Below, one piece after another: positions 15,603 through 27,877 of a stretch of DNA of 64,000 nucleotides. The stretch spans positions 1 to 64,000 of the forward strand of contig CP070643.1 in the NCBI GenBank assembly GCA_020354125.1, read 5' to 3'. This stretch comes from Betaproteobacteria bacterium (GTDB taxonomy: Bacteria > Pseudomonadota > Gammaproteobacteria > Burkholderiales > Eutrophovitaceae). The notes beneath the pieces were generated by a model. The model saw only the letters and a list, made by a program, of their open reading frames with translations, made no database searches and was not told the origin of the DNA. A program made the position numbers and the translations under genes. Every line of letters starts with the position of its first letter. Within the stretch, counting starts at the first letter, position 1.

Positions 15603-16552
15603 GCCCGGAGCTCCTTACCCGCCGAAATCCACATAAACACGTCGTTGAGGTTGGGACGGCGTACCCGCCACGCCGTCGCGAGTTCGGCGGTATCGGTCTG
15701 CAGTTGCGCGAGTTCAGACAGGTCTTCTTCACCGTGCCTGAAGAATGCGGTATCACCATCAATCAGACAGTCTCCGAGTTTTGGTGCCAACCGTGCCTTC
15801 AAAGTGTCGAGGTCATCGGCTTCGACTTCCAGAATGTGTCGACCAAGCTTGTCCACCAGCGCCGCCGGTTCGCCTTCGTCAACCAGCTTGCCTTTGCGAA
15901 TAAAGCATACGCGATCACACGGAGACGCTTCCTCCAGATAATGCGTGGTGAGCAGGACGGTCATGCCGGTTCTGGCACGCAGCCGCTCGATGAAACGCCA
16001 GATTCGCCGACGGTTGGGCAAATCCAGACCGATGGTCGGCTCGTCAAGGAACAGAACACGTGGTTCGTGCAACACGCCGCGCACAATGTCCAGCGCGCGA
16101 CGCATGCCGCCCGACAAGGTCACGACCGGTTTGTCACGCCGGTCGGTCATATCGAACAACTCCAGCAGTTCCGCTGAGCGCCGTTCGCTGACAGCTGCTG
16201 GCAGGTTATACAGCCACCCGGCAAAACGGAGGTTCTCTCGCACGGTCAGGGTCCGATCGAGCGCTGACTCCTGGAAAACCAGACCGATCTGACGTCGTGC
16301 CAGCACCGGGTGTTGTGAAACATCGATGTCGCCAATGCGAACGCGACCGGTGCTGGGCCGAACCAGGGTGGCCAGCATATGTATAGTCGTTGTCTTGCCG
16401 GAGCCGTTCGGGCCAAGCAAGCCGAAGAACTGGCCGGCAGGAATCTCCAGGTCGAGGCCGTCGACGGCGGTCAGCGCGCCGTAGCGCTTAACGAGGCCGG
16501 CCGCGGAAATCGCGGCCGGGGTAGTGGTCTGGTCGATCGCAGGCGCGATCAT
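15599..16552 (-). CDS. ABC transporter ATPase, PQQ-operon linked
   Basis: A 317-residue ABC ATPase. Walker A is LLGPNGSGKTTT (about residues 45-56), the signature is VTLSGGMRRALD, Walker B is VLFLDEPTIGLD and the H-loop is TTHYLEEA. A C-terminal extension of about 80 residues resembles the drug/NatA-type regulatory tail. Its start overlaps the pqqE stop by 4 bp, so it is translated as part of the pqq operon, and it forms a transporter with the following permease. Confidence 0.92.
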   Translation of the reverse strand: MIAPAIDQTTTPAAISAAGLVKRYGALTAVDGLDLEIPAGQFFGLLGPNGSGKTTTIHMLATLVRPSTGRVRIGDIDVSQHPVLARRQIGLVFQESALDRTLTVRENLRFAGWLYNLPAAVSERRSAELLELFDMTDRRDKPVVTLSGGMRRALDIVRGVLHEPRVLFLDEPTIGLDLPNRRRIWRFIERLRARTGMTVLLTTHYLEEASPCDRVCFIRKGKLVDEGEPAALVDKLGRHILEVEADDLDTLKARLAPKLGDCLIDGDTAFFRHGEEDLSELAQLQTDTAELATAWRVRRPNLNDVFMWISAGKELRA

Positions 16553-17730
16553 GTAACGGGCGTCGTGTCGTCCCGATGCGCCGCTTCCCGCTCAGCGAGC
16601 TTGCGCGAATTTTTGTCGTCACGGAACAGAATGATCGGCTTGATCTCCGCCGCCGGCGGCTGAGGCTGCTGTGCCAGCTCGACCTGTTCCGTAATGAGGT
16701 GGTGATGCGGTGATTTGTCGCACACCGGATCGGCGTTGGCTGCATCGCCGGTCAGCATATAGGCCTGACAGCGGCAACCGCCGAGATCATTCTCTTTTTC
16801 CGGACAGCTTCTGCACGGTTCTTTCATCCAGCTGTCACCGCGATAGGCAGCGAAGCCCGGCGACTCCTGCCAGATCCAGCGCACATCGTGATCGCGCACG
16901 TTTGGAAATTCGAGTCCCGGCAGCATCCTTGCCTCATGGCAGGGCAGTGCCAGTCCATCTGCCGCTACGTTCAGAAACACAACGCCCCAACCGTTCATGC
17001 ACTTCTTGGGACGCGTCGAGTAGTAGTCCGGTACGACGAAGTAGATCTTCATCTTGTTACCAACGCGGTCCCTGAACCGATTGGTGACCTCCTCGGCGTG
17101 CTCCAGTTGCTTGCGGCTCGGCATCAGGTACTTGCGGTTTTCCATCGCCCACGCGTAGTACTGGCTGTTGGCAAGTTCAACGTGTTCCGCCCCCATCGCT
17201 TCGGCCATTTCCAGAATCTGCTGAATGTGGTCGATGTTGAGCCGGTGCAGCACGACGTTGAGCACCATCGGGTACTCATATTCCTTGATCAGCTTGGCAA
17301 CTTTCGACTTCAGATCGAAAGTGCGCGTGCTCGACAGAAAATCGTTCAGTTCCTTCGTCGAGTCCTGAAAGGACAGCTGGATTTGGCCAAGCCCACCTTC
17401 CTTGAACGCTGAAATTCGCTTTTCGGTGAGACCAATGCCGGACGTGATGAGGTTGACGTAGTAGCCCATGTCGCTGGCTTCAGCGACCATGACTTCGACG
17501 TCGTCGCGCATCAGCGGTTCGCCGCCTGAAATACCGAGTTGCACCGCGCCAAGGTCACGTGCTTCGCGAAACGTCTTGAGCCACTCCTCGGTTGTCAACT
17601 CAGGGCCAAAGGTGGCGTAGTCGACAGGGTTATAGCAGAACACGCAGTGCAACGGGCACTTATACGTAATCTCTGCATTGACCCAAAGCGGGCCGGTCAC
17701 TTTGTTACTGTCGGATCCAGCCTTTTGCAT
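16549..17730 (-). CDS. pqqE: PQQ biosynthesis radical SAM enzyme PqqE
   Basis: Forms the first carbon-carbon crosslink between Glu and Tyr of the PqqA peptide, working with PqqD. The radical-SAM motif CPLHCVFC is at about residues 25-32, then GISGGEP. The C-terminal SPASM domain has the auxiliary-cluster cysteines (KKCMNGWG, LPCHEA, EPCRSCPEKENDLGGCRCQAY). Length 393 is normal, with a short extra tail. It overlaps pqqD by 26 bp and the ABC ATPase gene by 4 bp. Confidence 0.97.
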   Translation of the reverse strand: MQKAGSDSNKVTGPLWVNAEITYKCPLHCVFCYNPVDYATFGPELTTEEWLKTFREARDLGAVQLGISGGEPLMRDDVEVMVAEASDMGYYVNLITSGIGLTEKRISAFKEGGLGQIQLSFQDSTKELNDFLSSTRTFDLKSKVAKLIKEYEYPMVLNVVLHRLNIDHIQQILEMAEAMGAEHVELANSQYYAWAMENRKYLMPSRKQLEHAEEVTNRFRDRVGNKMKIYFVVPDYYSTRPKKCMNGWGVVFLNVAADGLALPCHEARMLPGLEFPNVRDHDVRWIWQESPGFAAYRGDSWMKEPCRSCPEKENDLGGCRCQAYMLTGDAANADPVCDKSPHHHLITEQVELAQQPQPPAAEIKPIILFRDDKNSRKLAEREAAHRDDTTPVT

Positions 17731-17992
17731 ATGCGTGCTCCAGAAAATCGATTACGTCCTGACGCAAATCCACGCCGGGAAAGGTGGCCTCGAGGTCGGC
17801 AATGATCTGCGAGACCGTTTTGTTGCCATCAACGCGCTTCATTATCTCGCCCGCGCTGCCCTCCAGCTTTACAAGTCCTTCCGGATAGAGCAGCACGTAA
17901 CTGTCTTGCGCCGGCTCAAACTGAAAACGAAACTGCGCCTCCAATGAGACCGCGGCATCTTCCGAAAGTTTGCTTCCGGATGACTCACTCAT
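17705..17992 (-). CDS. pqqD: PqqA-binding chaperone PqqD
   Basis: A 95-residue RiPP recognition protein that binds the PqqA peptide and presents it to PqqE. It shows the typical PqqD order: [19 protein letters not shown], then [23 protein letters not shown], then the C-terminal helix [15 protein letters not shown]. It overlaps pqqC by 8 bp and pqqE by 26 bp, indicating tight translational coupling. One PqqD presumably serves the peptides from all three pqqA genes, which are identical. Confidence 0.95.
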
Positions 17993-18728
17993 CAGCCATC
18001 CTCTCTATTGCGCCGGTACGCTGCTCACCGATGCCGTATGTCACCTGCATGGCATCGAGCATAGTCCACAGCACATCGAGTTTGAACTGCAGAATCCCCA
18101 ATGCGCGTTCCTGCTCTTCGCGCGTGCGGAAATGATCGAGTGTGACGCGCAGTCCATGCTCGACGTCGCGACGCGCTTCAGACAGGCGCTTGCGGAAATA
18201 GGCATAGCCTTGCGGCTCAATCCATGGGTAGTGATCCGGCCAGGTGTCGAGGCGCTTCTGGTGAATGGTTGGCGCGAACAGTTCGGTTAGCGATGAACAC
18301 ACCGCTTCTTGCCAGGGCGCACGACGGGCGAAGTTGACGTAGGCATCGACGGCAAAGCGAACGCCCGGCAATACGTGTTCGAGCGAAATCACTTCGTCGC
18401 GCTTCAGACCCACCGCATCGGCCAGCGCCAGCCATGCTTCGATGCCGCCTTCTTCGCCTTCGTTACCGTCGTGGTCGATTATGCGCTGTATCCACAGACG
18501 ACGATGGTCGCGATCGGGCATGTTGGCCATGATCGCGCTGTCCTTGATCGGGATCATAATCTGGTAATAGAAGCGATTGGCGACCCACCCGCGCACCTGC
18601 TCCGGCGTGCATCCGCCGCCGTTCATGGCAATGTGAAACGGGTGATAGATGTGATAGCGCTTGTCTTTGGCTCGCAGCTTCTGTTCGAATTCTTCCTTGC
18701 TCCAGGGAAGGTTTTCAGCGGCACCCAT
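17985..18728 (-). CDS. pqqC: Pyrroloquinoline-quinone synthase PqqC
   Basis: Cofactor-free oxidase that performs the final ring closure and eight-electron oxidation to PQQ. The 247-residue all-helical protein has the family stretches [33 protein letters not shown] (in part), RIIDHDG and [16 protein letters not shown]. The active-site His/Tyr/Arg-rich helices are intact. It is 26 bp from pqqB and overlaps pqqD. Confidence 0.96.
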
Positions 18729-18754: not shown

Positions 18755-19672
18755 TCAGAGAGTGATGTCCATGCCGTCGTAAGAGACCTCGATTTTTTCG
18801 GCCTCGAGTTGACGACGCTCGTCTGAATCTTCCCTGAGAATCGGGTTGGTGTTGTTGATATGTATCAGGATCTTGCGGTCTGCCTTGAGAGGCCGCAGAA
18901 CCTCCATCATCCCGCCCGGACCCGATTGCGGCAAATGCCCCATATCGAGCGACATTTTGTTGGCAATTCCGAGTGCCGCCATCTCGTCATTGGTCCAGCA
19001 GGTGCCGTCCACCAGCAGGCAGTCGGCCTCTTCGAGGAAGGGTTTTACGTGCGGCTCGATTTCGCCGAGACCCGGGGCATAAAACAGGTTCTTGCCGCTA
19101 CGTGTGTCGATGACACGCATGCCGATGTTGTCACCCTCGTGCGGGTCGTGGCGATGCGGCGAATAGGGCGGTGCCTTGCTGCTCAGCGGCACTGCCGTGA
19201 ATTCGAGGTCTTCGATACCGACCATTTCAAATGCATTGTTCGCTTGCGTCGGGATCTGGTGCCAGTTGACACCGCAATAATGCTCGAGAATTTTCAATAA
19301 CGGATTGCCGGTCGTCAGATCCTCGTACGCCATGTCGGTGCAATAGAGCTCCAACGGCGTTTTGCCCTCGCGCAGCATCAGCAAGCCGGTGGTGTGATCG
19401 ATTTGTGCGTCCATCAGGACGACTGAACGAACCGCGGTATCGCGAATAGCACGCGCCGGCTGCAGCTCGGGGAAACCTCGGAACTGGGTGAGAATATCCG
19501 GCGATGCGTTGAACAACACCCAGTTGGTGTTATCGCCCGATATGGCAATCGATGATTGGGTGCGCGCCTTCGCGTTGATCGTGCCCTTGCGTAATCCGTC
19601 GCAATTCGGGCAATTGCAGTTCCACTGCGGGAATCCTCCTCCGGCTCCCGAGCCTAGCACTCTGATTCGCAT
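18755..19672 (-). CDS. pqqB: PQQ biosynthesis protein PqqB
   Basis: Metallo-beta-lactamase-fold protein of 305 residues, thought to act as an iron hydroxylase on the crosslinked tyrosine. It starts [21 protein letters not shown], the characteristic PqqB N-terminus with its structural zinc cysteines. Metal residues include [10 protein letters not shown] and the late [11 protein letters not shown]. It is the first gene after the hairpin terminator that follows pqqA, so its expression probably depends on read-through. Confidence 0.96.
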
Positions 19673-19759: not shown

Positions 19760-19831
19760 TTAGCGGTTGGCGATGTACATGGTGACTTCGAAACCGAAGC
19801 GCATTTCGGTGTACTCAGGCTTGGTCCACAT
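19760..19831 (-). CDS. pqqA: PQQ precursor peptide PqqA, operon copy
   Basis: A 23-residue precursor peptide ([10 protein letters not shown]...ANR). It contains the E-V-T-M-Y core in which Glu15 and Tyr19 are crosslinked by PqqE and become PQQ. AGGTCATTCAC precedes the ATG, with GGAGG further upstream in the spacer. It heads the pqqABCDE operon. Two other genes in the window encode exactly the same peptide with synonymous differences, so the three copies are under strong selection at the protein level. Confidence 0.95.
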
Positions 19832-20026
19832 GTGAATGACCTCCAAAAGAAGATTAGATTATGTTTGGTTAAACCATGGTCAGGGTAACGATGTTCTGTT
19901 GCCCGAACCGGAACTCGTTTGAAAAGCATTAGTCGGAAGAGGCTGACTAAACCTCAACCCACGAGATCCGGACCGTATTGTCAGCGTTCGGCATCCTGCG
20001 TGCCGCAGAAAAATCAGCAAAAACTT

Positions 20027-20043
20027 CTCATGATTTTCATGAG
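20027..20043. promoter_or_regulatory. Palindromic operator between pqqA and tonB
   Basis: CTCATGATTTTCATGAG is a perfect 7-bp inverted repeat with a 3-bp centre. It lies 195 bp upstream of the pqqA start and 50 bp upstream of the divergent tonB. Near-identical elements precede the other two pqqA genes, so it is probably the binding site of a shared regulator. The LuxR-type response regulator encoded at 24196-24852 is the obvious candidate (inference). Confidence 0.7.
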
Positions 20044-20092
20044 ATTCGAAAGGAAACTTTACTCGACTCAACGGCTTGCATAGGCTTCGGAC

Positions 20093-21391
20093 ATGAGCAC
20101 GATTGCCCTCGGCGAAAACAGCCCACAATTCGAGCCGATTGTCAGTTGGTACCGGGAACGGCCGACGCAAGTGGCATTCGTGGCGTCGCTTGTTCTGCAC
20201 GCGCTGCTCATTGCGCTGATTCCGGGGTTTCGTTCGGTTCCGTTGGATACCCCGGCAGCATTAACGGTACAGATCGTTGCCGAGGAAATCCCCGCCGAGG
20301 AAATTCCCGCAGTGCAACCGGTCCCCGAGCCGCGACCGGTGGTGCGTGAGGCTGAGCCATTGCCGCAGCCTGCACCGCCTCCTGAACTCGTTGCGCCCGC
20401 GCCGCAACCACGTGTCATCGAACAGGCGCCAGTACAACCCAGGCCGGTGGTGGTCGAGCCGCAACCAGTCCCGGTGCTGCGCCAGCCAGAGGCTGCCAGC
20501 GTAGAACCGGTCGCACGCGCCGAGCTTGCCCCGACGATGCGGCGTGAAGTCCCACAAGTGCAGCCGATTATCACCAGGCGACCGGAACTGGCTCCGGCGC
20601 AACCGACCGTGCCGCTGATAGAGACGAGGCCAGTGACCGATGTAGAGGTGCCGGTTCAGCAAACGCCGGACATCTTCCGGCAAGTACGCAAGATCACCCG
20701 GGCGACTCCGCCGGTACAGGTGCAGCCACGCACCGATGTTCCGCCGCCAGTGGTGCAGGCACCACAAGTCGAACGGGTCGCGCCGAGTGCAGTTGAGGCG
20801 CCGGTCCTGGCAGCTCCGGGGGTGCGTACGCCGTCAGCACCAGCCGTGAAGGCTTCGCCATCGAGGCCAACCCAAGTGGCTCCGCCACCGGTGACGGCCC
20901 CGGTGCGCCCAACCAGCCCGACTGCGGCGCCAACGAGTCCGGCACCGGTCGCGCGGGTGGTGAAGGAATCGCCGTCGAGGCCGGTCCAGGCTGCAGCTCC
21001 GCAGTCGGTCGCGCCGGTGCAGCCAACGGCTCCGAAAGTGGCGCCAGCGCCAGCACCGGTCGTTGCCGCACCGATACCGCCGGCACCGGTACTGGAAGCC
21101 ATTGCACCATCAGTACTCGAAGCCTACCGGCAGGCAATTTCGCAAGAAATCATGCGCCATATGCTCTATCCGCGAGTGGCAGTCATGCGCAAATGGCAAG
21201 GCAAGACAGTTGTCGAAATGCAGTTGGCTGCCGACGGATCGGTGACGCGGATGATCATTGTCGAGTCGAGTGGTAGAGAAGTGCTCGACGAAGCTGCACT
21301 CAAGATGGTCAAGAAATCACTGCCGCTTCCGAAACCACCGCCCGGCGTGCGGGCCGTCAAGGTTCCAGTCGTTTTCCGGCTGCAGGGCTGA
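20093..21391 (+). CDS. tonB: TonB-family energy transducer with long Pro-rich linker
   Basis: Couples inner-membrane proton motive force (via ExbBD) to outer-membrane TonB-dependent transport. A single N-terminal membrane anchor (VAFVASLVLHALLIALIPGF, about residues 27-46) is followed by a periplasmic linker of about 300 residues rich in Pro, Val, Ala and Gln, then a C-terminal TonB domain (EMQLAADGSVTRMIIVESSG through PVVFRLQG). The linker is much longer than in Escherichia TonB. Placement between the pqq operon and a PqqU-like receptor suggests a dedicated TonB for PQQ uptake. No exbBD is seen nearby. Confidence 0.9.
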   Translation: MSTIALGENSPQFEPIVSWYRERPTQVAFVASLVLHALLIALIPGFRSVPLDTPAALTVQIVAEEIPAEEIPAVQPVPEPRPVVREAEPLPQPAPPPELVAPAPQPRVIEQAPVQPRPVVVEPQPVPVLRQPEAASVEPVARAELAPTMRREVPQVQPIITRRPELAPAQPTVPLIETRPVTDVEVPVQQTPDIFRQVRKITRATPPVQVQPRTDVPPPVVQAPQVERVAPSAVEAPVLAAPGVRTPSAPAVKASPSRPTQVAPPPVTAPVRPTSPTAAPTSPAPVARVVKESPSRPVQAAAPQSVAPVQPTAPKVAPAPAPVVAAPIPPAPVLEAIAPSVLEAYRQAISQEIMRHMLYPRVAVMRKWQGKTVVEMQLAADGSVTRMIIVESSGREVLDEAALKMVKKSLPLPKPPPGVRAVKVPVVFRLQG

Positions 21392-21403
21392 GTTGCGAAT
21401 CTA

Positions 21404-22426
21404 GTGTCAGAGACCAACACCGTTAACGGTGGCGGCGGCAATGGTTTGTATCCGCCGCTCGAGCCGTTCAGCGCGCAAAGTCTTTCTGTTTCGCCGGTTC
21501 ATCGCCTGTACGTAGAGCAGAGCGGCATTGCCACCGGATTCCCAGTGCTGTTTCTGCACGGCGGTCCGGGCAGCCAGACCAGGCCGGAGCATCGCCGCTA
21601 CTTTGATCCGAGCTTCTACCACGTGGTGCTGTTTGATCAGCGCGGCTGCGGCCGTTCCAATCCTTTTGGGTCGACCGAACAGAACACCACCTGGCATCTG
21701 GTCGAGGATATAGAGGCAATCCGCTACAAGCTGGGCGTGGACAAATGGTTGTTGTTCGGTGGCTCGTGGGGAAGCACGCTTGCACTCGCCTATGCCATGA
21801 GCCACCCTGGGCGCGTCGCCGGCATGATACTGCGAGGCGTCTTCCTGGCCAGCCGGCCCGAGCTCGAATGGTATATAAATGGACTGCGCAGCTTCATACC
21901 TACTGCATGGCAGCGGCTCACAGGTGGTATCGGCGAAGATGTCATTCAGCGCTACCAAGGCGAGGTGAATCATGCCGATCAGGCTGTGGCGCTGGGCGCG
22001 GCGCGCCGCTGGGTCGAATACGAAAACAGCGTCATGGCGATTGGCGGGCCCGCGGCACCGGAGGCGTCGGCGGCGCCAGGTTCGTCTGCGGCGCAGGGTT
22101 CCTCTACGGGACCGGGCGCGGGCGTAAATGAACGGGCGCTGCTTGCGCGCGCGCGCGTACAGCTACATTATCTGGCTGCTGAGTGCTTTCTTCGGGAGGG
22201 CGAGTTGATGCAGGCTGCGAGCGCAGTTACGGCACCGACTATCATCGTACAGGGGCGCACCGATATGGTATGCCCACCGGTAACGGCATACGAGTTGAGT
22301 GCGCGGTTGCCGGCGGCGCGACTGCGCATGATCGAGCAGGCCGGGCATGCGGCGCAAGGGCCGAGGTTGGCGCATGCATTGCGGATTGCCACGGACGATA
22401 TGCGCAAGGAGGTGGCGAGGGCTTAG
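21404..22426 (+). CDS. pip: Proline iminopeptidase-like alpha/beta hydrolase
   Basis: A 340-residue S33-family serine peptidase. It has the oxyanion region LFLHGGPGSQTRP, the S33 motif DQRGCGRSNP, the nucleophile elbow GGSWGST, the acid in QGRTDMVCPP and the catalytic His in EQAGHAA. The cap carries a low-complexity insert of Ala/Gly/Ser/Pro around residues 216-241, encoded by a GC-rich degenerate repeat, which ordinary iminopeptidases lack. Start is GTG. It sits in the PQQ locus, where a peptidase is needed to trim PqqA and no PqqF/PqqG is present; that role is a guess from context. Confidence 0.85.
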   Translation: MSETNTVNGGGGNGLYPPLEPFSAQSLSVSPVHRLYVEQSGIATGFPVLFLHGGPGSQTRPEHRRYFDPSFYHVVLFDQRGCGRSNPFGSTEQNTTWHLVEDIEAIRYKLGVDKWLLFGGSWGSTLALAYAMSHPGRVAGMILRGVFLASRPELEWYINGLRSFIPTAWQRLTGGIGEDVIQRYQGEVNHADQAVALGAARRWVEYENSVMAIGGPAAPEASAAPGSSAAQGSSTGPGAGVNERALLARARVQLHYLAAECFLREGELMQAASAVTAPTIIVQGRTDMVCPPVTAYELSARLPAARLRMIEQAGHAAQGPRLAHALRIATDDMRKEVARA

Positions 22427-24180
22427 TGAGTCTGCGGTTCTGGATCAATTTGGTGATCACGGTGGTGGTGGCAGGTTTCGCCATCGTGACAGCCTATATT
22501 CTGGTCGGTGATCTGAAGAAATCGATCAATGAAGAGATCGAGGCCGGTACGCGCGTCACGGTGCAGTTACTCGAGACCGTTATCGCGAGTTCGCAGGAGG
22601 CGGCCGAGGGTGGTGACGAGATGGCCGCATTGGCGATGTTCCTGCGTGATGCCGGCCGGGTGCGTGCCAATGAAATCCGCCTCTACGATGCGTTGGACAA
22701 TCTGATTTACGAGTCTCCACCATCGGTCTACAAGCAGGGCAGGTGGGCGCCGGAATGGTTCGCCTCATTGGTCAGGCCGCCGCTGCCCGATGTCCGGCTG
22801 GAACTACCCGGCGGTACCATCGTCGTCACCCCCGATTCCTCGCGCTCGATTCTGGATGCCTGGGACGAATTGAAGTGGCTGGGCGGACTGTTACTGGCGT
22901 TCTTCGTGTTGCTGAATCTGCTTGTTTTCTGGCTGCTCGGGCGCTTCATGCAACCATTGCAAAGCATTCTCGCTGGCCTCTCGCAAATGGAGCGGGGCCG
23001 CTTTGATGTGCGTCTGCCCGAGTACCGGCTACCTGAATTTGCCTCCATCAGTCACTCGTTCAATCGTATGGCGCAGGCGCTGGAAGACAGCATCTTCGAG
23101 AATCGCCGGCTCGCGTTGATAGCCCAGCAATCCAGCGATGCGATCATCATTCACGACCTGGAAGGCCGCGTGTCGTTCTGGAATTCGGCAGCCGAACGGA
23201 TGTTCGGCTATTGGGCGAGTGAGATTCTTGGTAACTCTGCTATGAAGCTTGCCCCGCCCGAGAAGCAGGACGAGTTGCGCGATACGCTCGACAAAATTCG
23301 TCGCCGCGAGCGTGTCGAACATCTCGAGACCACGCGTCTCACCAGATCGGGTGAACTGGTTGACGTCGCCCTTTCCGCGGCGCCGCTGGTCGATCCCGTG
23401 TCCGATGAAGTGATTGGCGAGATTTGCGCCATGCGTGACATGACCGAACACAAACGCATGCAGCAAACCGAAGAGGCCCTCGAGCAGAATCGGCGACTGA
23501 CCCAGCTGATCCAGTCGCGCCTCGAGGAGGAACGGCGCAATATCGCGCGCGAGCTCCATGATGAGCTTGGCCAGTGTGTCACTGCGATCAAGTCGATCGG
23601 CACTGCAATATCGAACCGTCAGGACGGCACATCGGAAGAAACGCGCAAAAATGCCGGCACCATCGTCTCCGTCGCGTCACACATCTACGACGTGGTGCAT
23701 TCCATAATTCGGCAGTTGCGCCCCAGCGCGCTAGATCATCTTGGTTTGAGCGAGGCGCTGCGAGAAGTAGTGGCGGCGTTTCAATCACGTCATCCGGAAG
23801 TTGTCGCCGAGCTGGTGCTGGGTCCGGACATTGATGGTTCGGCAGAAGACATCAATATCACCGTCTATCGCATCGTTCAGGAATGCTTGACCAACGTGAT
23901 TCGCCATTCGCAGGCGTCGCGGGTGATAATTGCAGTTTCACGAGATGACAACTCCAGCATGGGTGACGCGCTGCGAGTGCGCGTGCAAGACAACGGCAAA
24001 GGGCTGGATGTTCCGGATGCTTCGGCCAGCAGCCGCTTTGGGCTCATGGGAATGCGCGAAAGGGTGCAGGCCTTCGGTGGCAGTCTGGATATTGTATCCG
24101 GCGGGCCGGGAGAGGGTGTGATGGTCGAAGCCATGATTCCCGTGAAGCAGCCGCAAGCTGAGACTGCCGAACTGACCTGA
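22426..24180 (+). CDS. Membrane sensor histidine kinase, NarL-partner type (HAMP-PAS-HisKA_3)
   Basis: A 584-residue kinase. One transmembrane helix lies at about 5-27, then a periplasmic sensor of about 120 residues, a second helix (WLGGLLLAFFVLLNLLVFWLLG) at about 150-172, HAMP, a PAS domain at about 233-345, HisKA_3 with the phosphorylated His in ARELHDELG near 377, and a HATPase domain from about 475 (QECLTNVIRHSQAS, DNGKGLD). GTG at 22426 follows AAGGAGG and overlaps the pip stop. The response regulator is 15 bp downstream. Located between pqq genes, it probably controls PQQ or alcohol metabolism, as related systems do in pseudomonads (inference). Confidence 0.92.
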   Translation: MSLRFWINLVITVVVAGFAIVTAYILVGDLKKSINEEIEAGTRVTVQLLETVIASSQEAAEGGDEMAALAMFLRDAGRVRANEIRLYDALDNLIYESPPSVYKQGRWAPEWFASLVRPPLPDVRLELPGGTIVVTPDSSRSILDAWDELKWLGGLLLAFFVLLNLLVFWLLGRFMQPLQSILAGLSQMERGRFDVRLPEYRLPEFASISHSFNRMAQALEDSIFENRRLALIAQQSSDAIIIHDLEGRVSFWNSAAERMFGYWASEILGNSAMKLAPPEKQDELRDTLDKIRRRERVEHLETTRLTRSGELVDVALSAAPLVDPVSDEVIGEICAMRDMTEHKRMQQTEEALEQNRRLTQLIQSRLEEERRNIARELHDELGQCVTAIKSIGTAISNRQDGTSEETRKNAGTIVSVASHIYDVVHSIIRQLRPSALDHLGLSEALREVVAAFQSRHPEVVAELVLGPDIDGSAEDINITVYRIVQECLTNVIRHSQASRVIIAVSRDDNSSMGDALRVRVQDNGKGLDVPDASASSRFGLMGMRERVQAFGGSLDIVSGGPGEGVMVEAMIPVKQPQAETAELT

Positions 24181-24195
24181 CGATGGCCGCAACAG

Positions 24196-24852
24196 ATGGG
24201 CAACGCAATGAGTGATCACGGCATCGGCGTGATGCTCGTCGACGATCATGCGGTGGTGCGGATGGGGTTCCGGATGCTGCTAGAAGGCTCCGACGATATC
24301 AAAGTCCTCGGCGAGGCTGACAGCGGTGAGGAGGCCGTGCGCCAATTCGCTGAAATCAAACCCGACGTCATCGTCATGGATATTTCCATGCCGGGGATTG
24401 GTGGGCTTGAGGCGATCGACCGGATTCTTGCCAAGGTTCCTGATATGCGGATTCTTGCCCTGTCGGCGCACGAGGACGTCATGCATGCGCGGCGGGTGCT
24501 CAAGGCCGGGGCGGTTGGCTATCTCACCAAGCGCAGCGCGGCCGAAGAGTTGATGCACGCGATCAGGGTGGTGCACCAGGGCAAAACCTATCTGGAACCT
24601 GGTATCGCCCAGCAGATGGCCGTGGAACAGGTCTCGGGCCAGCGCAATCCGGTCGATACTTTGAGCGAAAAGGAGTTCAAGGTGTTTCTGGCGCTGGCCC
24701 GCGGTCAGTCAGTCCATGATATCGCTGACGTCATGTCGCTCAGCCCGCGCACGGTCGGTACCCATCTTTACAACATCAAGCAGAAGCTAGGCGCCTCCAA
24801 CAGTGCTGAATTGGCCATTATTGCTATTCGGGCTGGCCTCATAGAACCTTGA
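24196..24852 (+). CDS. LuxR/NarL-family response regulator
   Basis: A 218-residue DNA-binding response regulator. The receiver domain has VMLVDDHAVVR, the phospho-acceptor Asp in VIVMDISMPG near residue 62 and the Lys in GYLTKRS. The C-terminal LuxR helix-turn-helix is at about 153-218 (LSEKEFKVFLALARGQSVHDIA, MSLSPRTVGTHLYNIKQKL). It resembles ErbR/ExaE-type regulators, which activate pqq and quinoprotein genes in Pseudomonas. It ends 168 bp before the second pqqA and is the best candidate for binding the palindrome shared by the three pqqA upstream regions. An ATG at 24208 is an alternative start. Confidence 0.92.
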   Translation: MGNAMSDHGIGVMLVDDHAVVRMGFRMLLEGSDDIKVLGEADSGEEAVRQFAEIKPDVIVMDISMPGIGGLEAIDRILAKVPDMRILALSAHEDVMHARRVLKAGAVGYLTKRSAAEELMHAIRVVHQGKTYLEPGIAQQMAVEQVSGQRNPVDTLSEKEFKVFLALARGQSVHDIADVMSLSPRTVGTHLYNIKQKLGASNSAELAIIAIRAGLIEP

Positions 24853-24896
24853 AAAACAAGGTCTTTATTTTTTGGCCTTGGGTTGGAAGGGGTCTT

Positions 24897-24913
24897 CTAA
24901 TGAAAATCATGAG
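24897..24913 (+). promoter_or_regulatory. Operator-like element upstream of second pqqA
   Basis: CTAATGAAAATCATGAG matches the perfect palindrome at 20027-20043 (read on the opposite strand) in 16 of 17 positions. The following GTGGCTTTTACGCGTTTTTC is also nearly identical to the third copy's flank. The element ends 106 bp before the pqqA start. Confidence 0.7.
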
Positions 24914-25019
24914 TGGCTTTTACGCGTTTTTCGCTGTTGCCACGTCGACGAAGTCAGCAGAATGCAGCTGTCCGTTTCATAGACACCCCCGTTAATAATT
25001 TTTCGAGAGGAACAAGATC

Positions 25020-25091
25020 ATGTGGACCAAGCCCGAGTACACCGAAATGCGTTTTGGCTTTGAAGTAACGATGTACATCGCCAACCGCTAA
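25020..25091 (+). CDS. pqqA: PQQ precursor peptide PqqA, second copy
   Basis: Encodes the same 23-residue peptide as the operon copy, with the E-V-T-M-Y crosslink core. AGAGGAACAAGATC precedes the ATG (GAGG spaced 8 bp). It is a stand-alone, monocistronic unit with its own upstream element and its own terminator, and no pqqB follows. It likely boosts precursor supply under the control of the adjacent two-component system (inference). Confidence 0.93.
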
Positions 25092-25108
25092 TTTCAGGTT
25101 GAGTTCAG

Positions 25109-25138
25109 AAAAAAGGCTGCCCTCGGGCAGCCTTTTTT
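25109..25138 (+). terminator. Intrinsic terminator after second pqqA
   Basis: AAAAAAGGCTGCC-CTCG-GGCAGCCTTTTTT is a perfect hairpin with a tetraloop and T-run, 17 bp after the pqqA stop codon. It makes the 23-codon gene a single-gene transcript. Confidence 0.93.
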
Positions 25139-25142
25139 CATT

Positions 25143-25342
25143 GCAGCAAAGTTGACCGGCGATGATTGCGCCGAACAACCGGGTCAGCCAGTCACAACGT
25201 TATTTGTCCTGACAAGATCCGTCCACCTTTGCTGAACCGTGTCTGCCCGGGCAGCCAAACGTACCACACCTCGAATTGGGAAGGCATCAAGGGGGTGCGG
25301 GCATTCCGGTTTGGCTCGAATCTAAGATGTGAACGCGGTGGC
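25143..25342. other. Spacer between the two stand-alone pqqA units
   Basis: About 200 bp separate the duplicated units. I see no ORF with family features, no repeat of the flanking units and no recognisable RNA gene here. Confidence 0.4.
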
Positions 25343-25344
25343 TT

Positions 25345-25361
25345 CTAATGGAAATCATGAG
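25345..25361 (+). promoter_or_regulatory. Operator-like element upstream of third pqqA
   Basis: CTAATGGAAATCATGAG differs from the second-copy element at one base. The distance to the pqqA ATG is identical in the two units (123 bp from element start to ATG). The 3' flank GTGGTTTTTACGCGTTTTGC is also conserved. The half-site TCATGAG is invariant in all three copies. Confidence 0.7.
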
Positions 25362-25467
25362 TGGTTTTTACGCGTTTTGCGCTGTTGCTTTGCCGGCCGA
25401 ATCGGCACAATGCCGTACTGGGTTTTGTAGACAGTTCCTTTAATAGCTCTTAGAGAGGATCGAGATC

Positions 25468-25539
25468 ATGTGGACCAAGCCTGAGTACACCGAAATGCGT
25501 TTTGGCTTTGAAGTTACCATGTACATCGCCAACCGCTAA
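25468..25539 (+). CDS. pqqA: PQQ precursor peptide PqqA, third copy
   Basis: Again the identical 23-residue precursor, differing from the second copy only at synonymous sites (Pro5, Val16 and Thr17 codons). GAGAGGATCGAGATC precedes the ATG. Upstream element, spacing, leader and terminator all align with the second copy, showing tandem duplication of a unit of about 245 bp with a period of 448 bp. It is followed by a terminator and then the PqqU-like receptor gene. Confidence 0.93.
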
Positions 25540-25681: not shown

Positions 25682-27877
25682 ATGCAGGGGGAGCGGATGA
25701 ACAAGAACAGGCGCTGCCGCCGCGCATCGGCAGCAAGCCTTACATCCTTGGGTGGTGGAGAGCCACAGGGCAGGAGTATCGCCGGTCGGGCGCTTAGCCT
25801 AGGGCTACTGCTGACCTACACGCACGCAGTTGCCTACGCCCAGGACGTCGATGTGATCGTGGCACCGGTAGTGGTGACGCCGACGCGCGTCGAGCAACCA
25901 AGTTTCGACTTGCCGGTTTCAATCGAAGCCTATGACCAGCAGGTTATTCAAACAGCGCAACCTCAGGTGAACGTATCCGAGACACTGATCAGGTCGCCCG
26001 GCGTCGTCGCCAACGAGCGGCAGAACTACGCCCAAGACCTTCAGATCTCCATCCGGGGTTTTGGTGCGCGCGCCACTTTTGGTGTGCGAGGAATCCGCTT
26101 GATCGCGGATGGCATTCCGCTGACCATGCCGGATGGCCAGGGGCAGACTGCCAACATCGATCTTGGCAGCGCCAAGCGTATCGAGGTTATGCGTGGACCG
26201 TTTTCATCGCTGTACGGTAACTCGTCCGGTGGCGTGATCAACGTGTTCACTGAAGACGGCCCCGAACAGACGACGGTCTCGGGTATCGGCTGGCTGGGTG
26301 ACTTTGGCAGCAACCGGCTGGGGCTAAAACTGGGCGGACAGCAGGGCAGCCTCAATTACGTTCTCAGCGGTGCCCGGTTTGATACCGATGGCTACCGTGA
26401 GCACAGTGCGGCGACCCGGGATACCGTCAATACCAAGCTGTTCTGGGACACCAGTCAAAAAACGCGTGTAACGCTGGTAGCGAACTACCTCAACCAGCCC
26501 GAGACCCAGGATCCGCGTGGCCTGACCAAGGAACAGGTGGCGGAGGATCCGACTCAGGCTGGCGATGGAGCGGTCGAGTTCAACACGCGCAAGAGCGTTG
26601 AGCACGCGCAGACCGGCGCGGTGCTCGACCAGCAACTGACGGCACTGGATGCGATCCGTCTCATGGGTTACGGGGGCAAGCGCACCGTTGAGCAGTATCT
26701 CGGTTTTGGCGCTCCGGGTCGCGGCGTGATTGGGCTTGATCGCAATTTCTACGGTGTCGATTTGCGTTGGAATAGGCAAACCGAACTGGGCAATAACCCT
26801 TTTACGTTCACGCTCGGGATCAATTACGACAATATGGAGGAGCGGCGAAACAGCTGGACCAACGATGACGGCGACAAGGGTGCACTTGGTCGCGACGAGG
26901 ACAATAGTGTTTATAACTTCGACCAGTTCCTGCAGCTGGAGTGGACGTTGTCGGAGCGCTGGATCTTCAGCGGCGGAGTGCGCAACAGCGAAGTGACGTT
27001 CAAGAGCGTCGACTACTTCATCACGGGTACTAATCCTGATGACAGCGGCGAAATCGAATTCAGTGAAGTGACGCCTGTGGCGGGCGTGGTCTTCAAGGTC
27101 AAGCCGACATTCAATCTCTATGCAAACGCCGGAAGGGGGTTCGAGACGCCGACATTTTCGGAACTGGCCTACAGCTCTACCGATGGGTCCGTTACCGGCT
27201 TGAATCGGGACCTCAAACCAGCGACCAGTGACAATTACGAGATCGGCGCAAAAGCCTTTATTGGCGCCAATACCCGCGTTAATGCCGCGGTGTTTTATAT
27301 CGACACGAAGAATGAGATCGTTGTCTTCAGTAACTCCGGCGGACGCTCGGTCTATCAGAACATCGACAGTACCAGCCGCGAAGGATTCGAACTGGCTGTC
27401 GATAGCCGGTTCGGCGGTGGTTTCTCGGGCCTGCTCAGTTATTCCTATATCGATGCGACCTTCGATAACGAATTTGGCGCCTGTCTCGGCTTCTGCTCGA
27501 CCGCTGCTGGCCCGAACGTCACGGTTCCTGCGGGCAACAAGATCCCGGGAATTCCGGAAAACATGGTTTATGGAGAGCTCGCCTGGGGCAGTGAGCCGAC
27601 CGGGATGAGTACGGCGGTCGAAGCGCGCTGGGTCGACAAGATTTATACCAACGACATCAACGACGAATTTGCACACGCCTACACGGTGGTGAATTGGCGG
27701 ATCAACTTTGAACAGGTGGCCCAAGGTTGGCGCTACGGCGCGTTCGCCCGCATTAACAATCTTTTTGACGAGCAATACGTCGGGTCGGTCATTGTTAACG
27801 ACTCGGGGCGCCGCTACTACGAGCCCGCGCCGGGCCGGAATTTCATCGTTGGTGCGTCGGCAAGCTACGCGTTCTGA
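25682..27877 (+). CDS. pqqU: TonB-dependent outer-membrane receptor, PqqU (YncD)-like
   Basis: A TonB-dependent transporter of up to 731 residues (an ATG at 25697 is an alternative start). After an unusually long signal region ending near AVAYAQ come a TonB-box-like stretch (VDVIVAPVVVTPTR), the plug domain and a 22-strand-type barrel. Many blocks match, from memory, Escherichia PqqU/YncD: NYAQDLQISIRGFG, DGIPLTMPDGQGQT, GPFSSLYGNSSGGVIN, GRGFETPTFSELAY and NLFDEQYVGSVIV. PqqU takes up PQQ. Its position beside pqqA copies, the pqq operon and tonB strongly supports PQQ as substrate. It is followed by a strong terminator. Confidence 0.88.
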   Translation: MQGERMNKNRRCRRASAASLTSLGGGEPQGRSIAGRALSLGLLLTYTHAVAYAQDVDVIVAPVVVTPTRVEQPSFDLPVSIEAYDQQVIQTAQPQVNVSETLIRSPGVVANERQNYAQDLQISIRGFGARATFGVRGIRLIADGIPLTMPDGQGQTANIDLGSAKRIEVMRGPFSSLYGNSSGGVINVFTEDGPEQTTVSGIGWLGDFGSNRLGLKLGGQQGSLNYVLSGARFDTDGYREHSAATRDTVNTKLFWDTSQKTRVTLVANYLNQPETQDPRGLTKEQVAEDPTQAGDGAVEFNTRKSVEHAQTGAVLDQQLTALDAIRLMGYGGKRTVEQYLGFGAPGRGVIGLDRNFYGVDLRWNRQTELGNNPFTFTLGINYDNMEERRNSWTNDDGDKGALGRDEDNSVYNFDQFLQLEWTLSERWIFSGGVRNSEVTFKSVDYFITGTNPDDSGEIEFSEVTPVAGVVFKVKPTFNLYANAGRGFETPTFSELAYSSTDGSVTGLNRDLKPATSDNYEIGAKAFIGANTRVNAAVFYIDTKNEIVVFSNSGGRSVYQNIDSTSREGFELAVDSRFGGGFSGLLSYSYIDATFDNEFGACLGFCSTAAGPNVTVPAGNKIPGIPENMVYGELAWGSEPTGMSTAVEARWVDKIYTNDINDEFAHAYTVVNWRINFEQVAQGWRYGAFARINNLFDEQYVGSVIVNDSGRRYYEPAPGRNFIVGASASYAF

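Follow-up and report, generated by a model that had tools for sequence, protein, structure and literature searches.

A conserved palindrome at pqqA promoters as the probable operator of a neighboring two-component system

Gene content of the PQQ locus

The window (the whole stretch of 64,000 nucleotides that was analyzed) carries a PQQ biosynthesis cluster, with pqqABCDE on the minus strand and, divergent from it, genes for a TonB-like protein, a prolyl aminopeptidase, a histidine kinase, a response regulator, two stand-alone pqqA copies, and a TonB-dependent receptor (Table 1). All three pqqA genes encode an identical 23-residue PqqA, which scored over the cut-offs of both PF08042 (43.9 bits) and TIGR02107 (49.4 bits). 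The arrangement of pqq, kinase, and regulator genes with operators on either side is shared by many metagenome-assembled genomes of Burkholderiales, and a shorter version of the cluster was detected in Pseudohongiella.

Both tonB and the PqqU-like receptor gene lie within the PQQ biosynthesis cluster, and synteny of such a PqqU-type receptor with PQQ genes has been reported for four Burkholderiales genomes (PMC12124388); PQQ synthesis plus re-uptake from one cluster is possible. Two metagenome bins that carry the cluster are labeled Bordetella parapertussis and Klebsiella pneumoniae (L098 and L134, respectively), and these species labels look wrong. L095 (G007:C129) contains an additional, divergent pqqB that is accompanied by a pqqA of its own but lacks the operator; it is a foreign copy or contamination.

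Table 1 Features of the PQQ locus in the window, by position.
Feature	Position	Strand	Basis or remark
pqqE, radical SAM with SPASM domain	16549..17730	-	Domain match
pqqD	17705..17992	-	Position and sequence
pqqC	17985..18728	-	Position and sequence, conserved beside pqqB
pqqB	18755..19672	-	TIGR02108, 417 bits
pqqA1, first gene of the pqq operon	19760..19831	-	PF08042, TIGR02107
Predicted -10 of pqqA1, GACAAT	19977..19982	-	Offset 61 from operator edge; prediction only
Degenerate second operator copy, TTGCTGATTTTTCTGCG	20004..20020	-	23 bp downstream of operator 1 towards pqqA
Putative operator 1, main site of pqqABCDE	20027..20043	-	CTCATGAAAATCATGAG on the pqqA strand; motif matching
TonB-like protein gene, divergent from pqqA1	20093..21391	+	Profile match
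Prolyl aminopeptidase-like hydrolase	21404..22426	+	TIGR01249, 284 bits (cut-off 259.75)
Sensor histidine kinase	22426..24180	+	Periplasmic region (weakly LapD/MoxY-like), HAMP, PAS, HisKA_3, HATPase
NarL/LuxR-type response regulator, proposed operator binder	24196..24852	+	Recognition helix SPRTVGTHLYNIKQKL
Putative operator 2, main site of stand-alone pqqA2	24897..24913	+	Motif matching
Degenerate second operator copy, TTACGCGTTTTTCGCTG	24920..24936	+	Offset analysis, operator 2
Predicted -10 of pqqA2, CAGAAT	24958..24963	+	Prediction only
pqqA2, stand-alone	25020..25091	+	Sequence; peptide identical to pqqA1 product (23 aa)
Putative operator 3, main site of stand-alone pqqA3	25345..25361	+	Motif matching
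Degenerate second operator copy, TTACGCGTTTTGCGCTG	25368..25384	+	Offset analysis, operator 3
Predicted -10 of pqqA3, CACAAT	25406..25411	+	Prediction only
pqqA3, stand-alone	25468..25539	+	Sequence; peptide identical to pqqA1 product (23 aa)
TonB-dependent receptor, nearest PQQ importer PqqU	25682..27877	+	NF041535, 645 bits (below cut-off 1200); conserved neighbor

Three copies of a 17-bp palindrome

As the initial annotation had reported, a 17-bp palindrome is located upstream of each of the three pqqA genes. The first copy, CTCATGATTTTCATGAG, had been described as a perfect inverted repeat, which is true of its two 7-bp arms but not of the 3-bp AAA/TTT spacer between them (7-3-7). The other two are near copies of it, as proposed, and all three fit the single pattern CT[CA]ATG[AG]AAATCATGAG when read in the coding direction of the downstream pqqA gene. 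Four motif matches at up to three mismatches were detected in the window, compared with 0.17 expected from shuffles. A scan of the 4.24-Mb genome with CTMATGRWWWYCATKAG for random scatter of the motif returned only the three pqqA copies at zero or one mismatch, and the 10 extra matches at two mismatches (6 for a reversed control) were near background.

Measured from its 5' edge, the site lies 212 bp from the ATG in the pqqABCDE copy and 123 bp in both pqqA2 and pqqA3, the equal spacing and the conserved flank noted earlier for the stand-alone units thus being real; the flank, TTTTACGCGTTTT, belongs to a degenerate second copy of the operator. Operator 1 ends 49 bp from the ATG of the divergent tonB, close to the earlier figure of 50 bp. 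Because operators 2 and 3 arose by a recent tandem duplication, they are not independent of each other, whereas operator 1 and the sites in other genomes are independent evidence.

Conservation of the site at pqqA promoters

The fetched DNA as a whole, some of which had been retrieved with PqqB, the regulator, or the motif itself as the query, contained 129 distinct exact sites, and 113 of them were within 300 bp upstream of a pqqA, compared with none for the reversed control pattern. The site was present with at most one mismatch in 29 of 61 relatives from the same order (the control pattern gave two hits in total), and all 49 matches in 80 loci from named genomes, which were picked by the regulator and not by pqqA, lay 107–260 bp upstream of a pqqA gene. 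Exact sites were found in 79 of 100 Methylophilaceae genomes, with no control hits. In this family the kinase-regulator pair is unlinked to pqqA, and nearly all sites inspected precede dispersed pqqA genes, or pqqB in one genus (probably Methylophilus; L201–L205, L350, and L367), where no pqqA was recognized beside the operator.

A position matrix built from 116 operator-to-ATG stretches indicated that T2, A4, G6, T11, C12, and A16 are invariant or nearly so. A chance or scattered motif was ruled out by the whole-genome and control-pattern counts, and the palindrome is a conserved putative operator at pqqA promoters well beyond the source genus.

Promoter architecture

The operator-aligned promoter sequences fall into two classes according to their half-sites (ATGA or AGGA), and both have a degenerate second site, at offset 23 from the operator in the ATGA class (z = 6.0, 100 sequences) and at offset 22 in the AGGA class (z = 5.0, 51 sequences). 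A -10-like hexamer was detected at offset 60–62 in 56 of the 100 sequences of the former and at offset 60–61 in 42 of the 51 sequences of the latter, and no obvious -35 was seen in either class. Assuming a transcription start ~7 bp past the -10, the center of the main site would be near -65 and that of the weak site near -42. The second site and a -10 at fixed distance without a clear -35 suggest activation, this being the layout expected of an activated promoter. The predicted leader of pqqA1 (window 19832–19976) is ~140 nt long, compared with ~45 nt for the stand-alone copies, and operon-linked pqqA copies in other genomes also tend to be farther from the operator.

The same regulator could instead use this operator to repress pqqA (or tonB), and operator 1 is close enough to the divergent tonB for a protein bound there to block this gene. 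We consider this unlikely, as a main site near -65, a weak site near -42, and no clear -35 are the usual layout of activated promoters, and the LuxR-type AgmR of Pseudomonas activates the PQQ operon (PMC12997753).

The site follows the regulator ortholog

Orthologs of the regulator (at least 66% identity) were detected in 21 to 22 of the 61 order relatives, all but one of which have the site with at most one mismatch. In the remaining genome, G017, pqqA is preceded by a degenerate TTCATGAATTTCATGAC; likewise, the regulator-bearing locus L108 has a degenerate CTCATGAAAATACTGAG only. Genome G019, with PqqB and no regulator ortholog, has no site. None of 275 other Gammaproteobacteria had the exact site; PqqB was present in 34 of them and a regulator of at least 60% identity in none, which rules out the site as a general mark of PQQ genes. 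The 25 readable upstream regions from these PqqB genomes had at least four mismatches to the site, except that of the regulator-bearing G403, with two; its regulator (59% identical) keeps the recognition helix GTHLYNIKQKL, and its pqqA is preceded by ATCATGAAAATCATGAA. Because the site tracks the orthologs of the adjacent regulator and not PQQ genes in general, also where the two are unlinked, this regulator is the best-supported binder, and the operator is very probably bound by the two-component regulator encoded next door.

A joint change of half-site and recognition helix

A different pair was found in G302, the regulator of which (56% identical) has the helix GTHHTNIKQKL and the pqqA of which is preceded by ATCAGGAAAATCCTGAA, with both half-sites altered alike. 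In the gammaproteobacterial family of G302, TCAGGAWWWTCCTGA was detected in 29 of 57 genomes, and 30 of the 31 sites examined are before pqqA. The half-site is changed from ATGA to AGGA on both sides in this family, and its regulators have GTHHTNIKQKL or a one-residue variant in place of GTHLYNIKQKL. As a reciprocal control, the AGGA-type pattern gave six single hits in the 61 relatives, none near a pqqA.

When distinct regulators whose fetched DNA also contained a site were tallied, LY helices were paired with ATGA 37:0 and HT helices with AGGA 11:0, a pairing for which the Fisher p is nominal as it ignores relatedness; the switch is restricted to one family and so could have arisen just once. 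When the DNA-binding domain was aligned without gaps to VraR, LiaR, and EsrB, the changed residues fell in the recognition helix, the second of them at what we take to be the position of the base-contacting lysine of NarL. This joint change of site and helix is the best evidence for this regulator as the likely binder. The initial proposal of an operator for the adjacent LuxR-type protein is hence supported by co-occurrence, by the sites at unlinked pqqA genes, and by the joint change of site and recognition helix.

There is little reason to believe that another, unlinked regulator binds the palindrome, with the adjacent two-component system merely traveling with the PQQ genes. These genomes do encode several other LuxR-type paralogs, but those inspected have other helices, and the site both tracks the ortholog of the adjacent regulator and changes along with its recognition helix. 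An element that works in RNA, as a hairpin in the pqqA leader, is very improbable: the 7-bp arms and 3-nt spacer could fold, but the element is ~52–53 bp upstream of the predicted -10 and therefore outside the transcript, both half-sites keep the same A/T-rich 3-bp spacer, and no Rfam family scored above its gathering threshold at the element. That the similarity is a functionless relic of pqqA-unit duplication has a negligible probability, since the shared flank of the tandem duplicates 2 and 3 would fit it but the flank of operator 1 differs and the site, unlike the DNA around it, is conserved in many families.

Extent of the regulon

The initial annotation had asked whether the motif also precedes quinoprotein dehydrogenase or cytochrome genes. 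None of the 10 matches to the quinoprotein dehydrogenase model in the source genome has a site with fewer than four mismatches within 1.5 kb, so that control of these genes by the operator was rejected there, and the predicted exact-site regulon of this genome seems confined to pqqA. A site beside a cytochrome gene was found in two Methylophilaceae of one genus (L346 1118–1134 and L363 1183–1199), in which the exact operator is located between divergent genes for cytochrome b561 and a metallohydrolase, the latter identified as quinoprotein relay system zinc metallohydrolase 2 (TIGR04559, over cut-off). This is a predicted lineage-specific addition to the regulon.

Other exact operators were found before a DUF1800 gene, before the gene for a glycine-zipper protein (two genomes), and near a DUF3025 gene (L210 2069; L342 1145; L362 1142; L348 1225). 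Such sites before unrelated genes may be extra targets or chance. The kinase-regulator pair is placed after a PQQ-dependent dehydrogenase in Methylobacillus flagellatus (L153 4528–6342), and a 54% identical regulator is encoded near a PQQ-dependent dehydrogenase, with no recognizable site, on the Azoarcus plasmid pAZKH (L374 4556–6292).

Comparison with known systems

The regulator matched PF00072 and PF00196 over their cut-offs, thus having the receiver domain with a phosphorylatable Asp and the GerE helix-turn-helix of the NarL/FixJ class, and its acidic pair and Asp (positions 16, 17, and 62) are invariant. Assignments to the UvrY/SirA/GacA family (NF007018, 208.9 bits, below the cut-off of 280) and to ErdR (NF041830, 59 bits, below the cut-off of 390) were rejected. 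The domain order is that of UhpA, NarL, and VraR/LiaR, members of the NarL family with palindromic or paired binding sites, and UhpA uses a strong upstream site and a weak site over the -35, similar to the arrangement predicted here. The system differs from all of these in its own half-site sequence and 3-bp spacing, and in its target, a cofactor precursor.

The pair also resembles MxaY/MoxY with MxaX/MoxX, and MxaB, i.e., a HisKA_3 kinase with a LapD/MoxY-type periplasmic domain plus a LuxR-type regulator, in methylotrophs. The LapD_MoxY_N model (cut-off 25) gave a weak 14.5 bits for the window kinase and 25.6 bits, over the cut-off, for its Methylobacillus ortholog. Based on this match the system probably works like MxaY-type ones and is at most a possible member of their group. 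MoxY/MoxX act on methanol dehydrogenase genes, and MxaY/MxaB control mxaF and xoxF (PMC5018670), whereas here it is pqqA that has the operator in front of it, and the quinoprotein dehydrogenases of the source genome lack the site. The analogy suggests that the kinase may sense a periplasmic signal tied to methanol or alcohol oxidation.

In Pseudomonas, the LuxR-type protein AgmR/ErbR/PedR1 activates both the ped cluster and the pqq operon (PMC12997753) and is similar in that it, too, belongs to a two-component pathway and switches genes of PQQ biosynthesis. The passages of this review that were consulted name no AgmR operator. The agmR gene is in the ped/exa alcohol dehydrogenase cluster, with hybrid kinases, and its product controls dehydrogenases too. 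In contrast, a plain HAMP-PAS-HisKA_3 kinase is encoded here beside the pqq genes, and the sites are nearly confined to pqqA. With the regulator gene in the pqq cluster, an AgmR-type genomic setting was rejected, a distinction from AgmR/ErbR/PedR1 made by gene context.

Discussion

It is highly probable that the palindrome is the operator of the adjacent kinase-regulator system, which would activate pqqA on phosphorylation. From the conservation and position of the site, its co-occurrence with the regulator, and its co-variation with the recognition helix, we infer binding, activation, and phosphorylation as the driver. The phosphorylated NarL-type regulator would bind CT(M)ATGA-AAA-TCAT(K)AG as a dimer and then occupy the weaker copy 22–23 bp downstream, overlapping the -35 region, from where it would recruit RNA polymerase to a promoter with a -10 but no clear -35. 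All three pqqA genes of the source genome, i.e., that of the pqqABCDE operon and the two stand-alone copies, would be switched together, with the stand-alone copies adding precursor peptide.

No prior description of this operator/regulator pair was found in the open-licence papers searched. The predicted regulon is new, of a well-known type, and its natural change of specificity is unusually clear. Our sequence comparisons likely reveal a two-component regulon that is widespread, previously undescribed, and devoted to the PQQ precursor peptide. In it, one regulator would serve one to several scattered pqqA genes plus pqqBCDE, and specificity would have been swapped naturally, with one base changed per half-site and two or three residues changed in the recognition helix.

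PQQ regulation in methanol oxidizers is poorly known so far, and the operator/regulator pair is conserved in many bacteria, methanol users included. For methanol oxidizers that depend on lanthanides or calcium, the results put forward a candidate regulator of PQQ supply together with its site and promoter layout. Methylophilaceae have 3–12 pqqA genes but only one copy of each other pqq gene (PMC4109929). The shared operator at their scattered pqqA copies suggests coordinated precursor supply. The natural helix/site pair could be used to test recognition rules for the NarL family, and the operator could be used to find overlooked pqqA genes, which are just 23 codons long.
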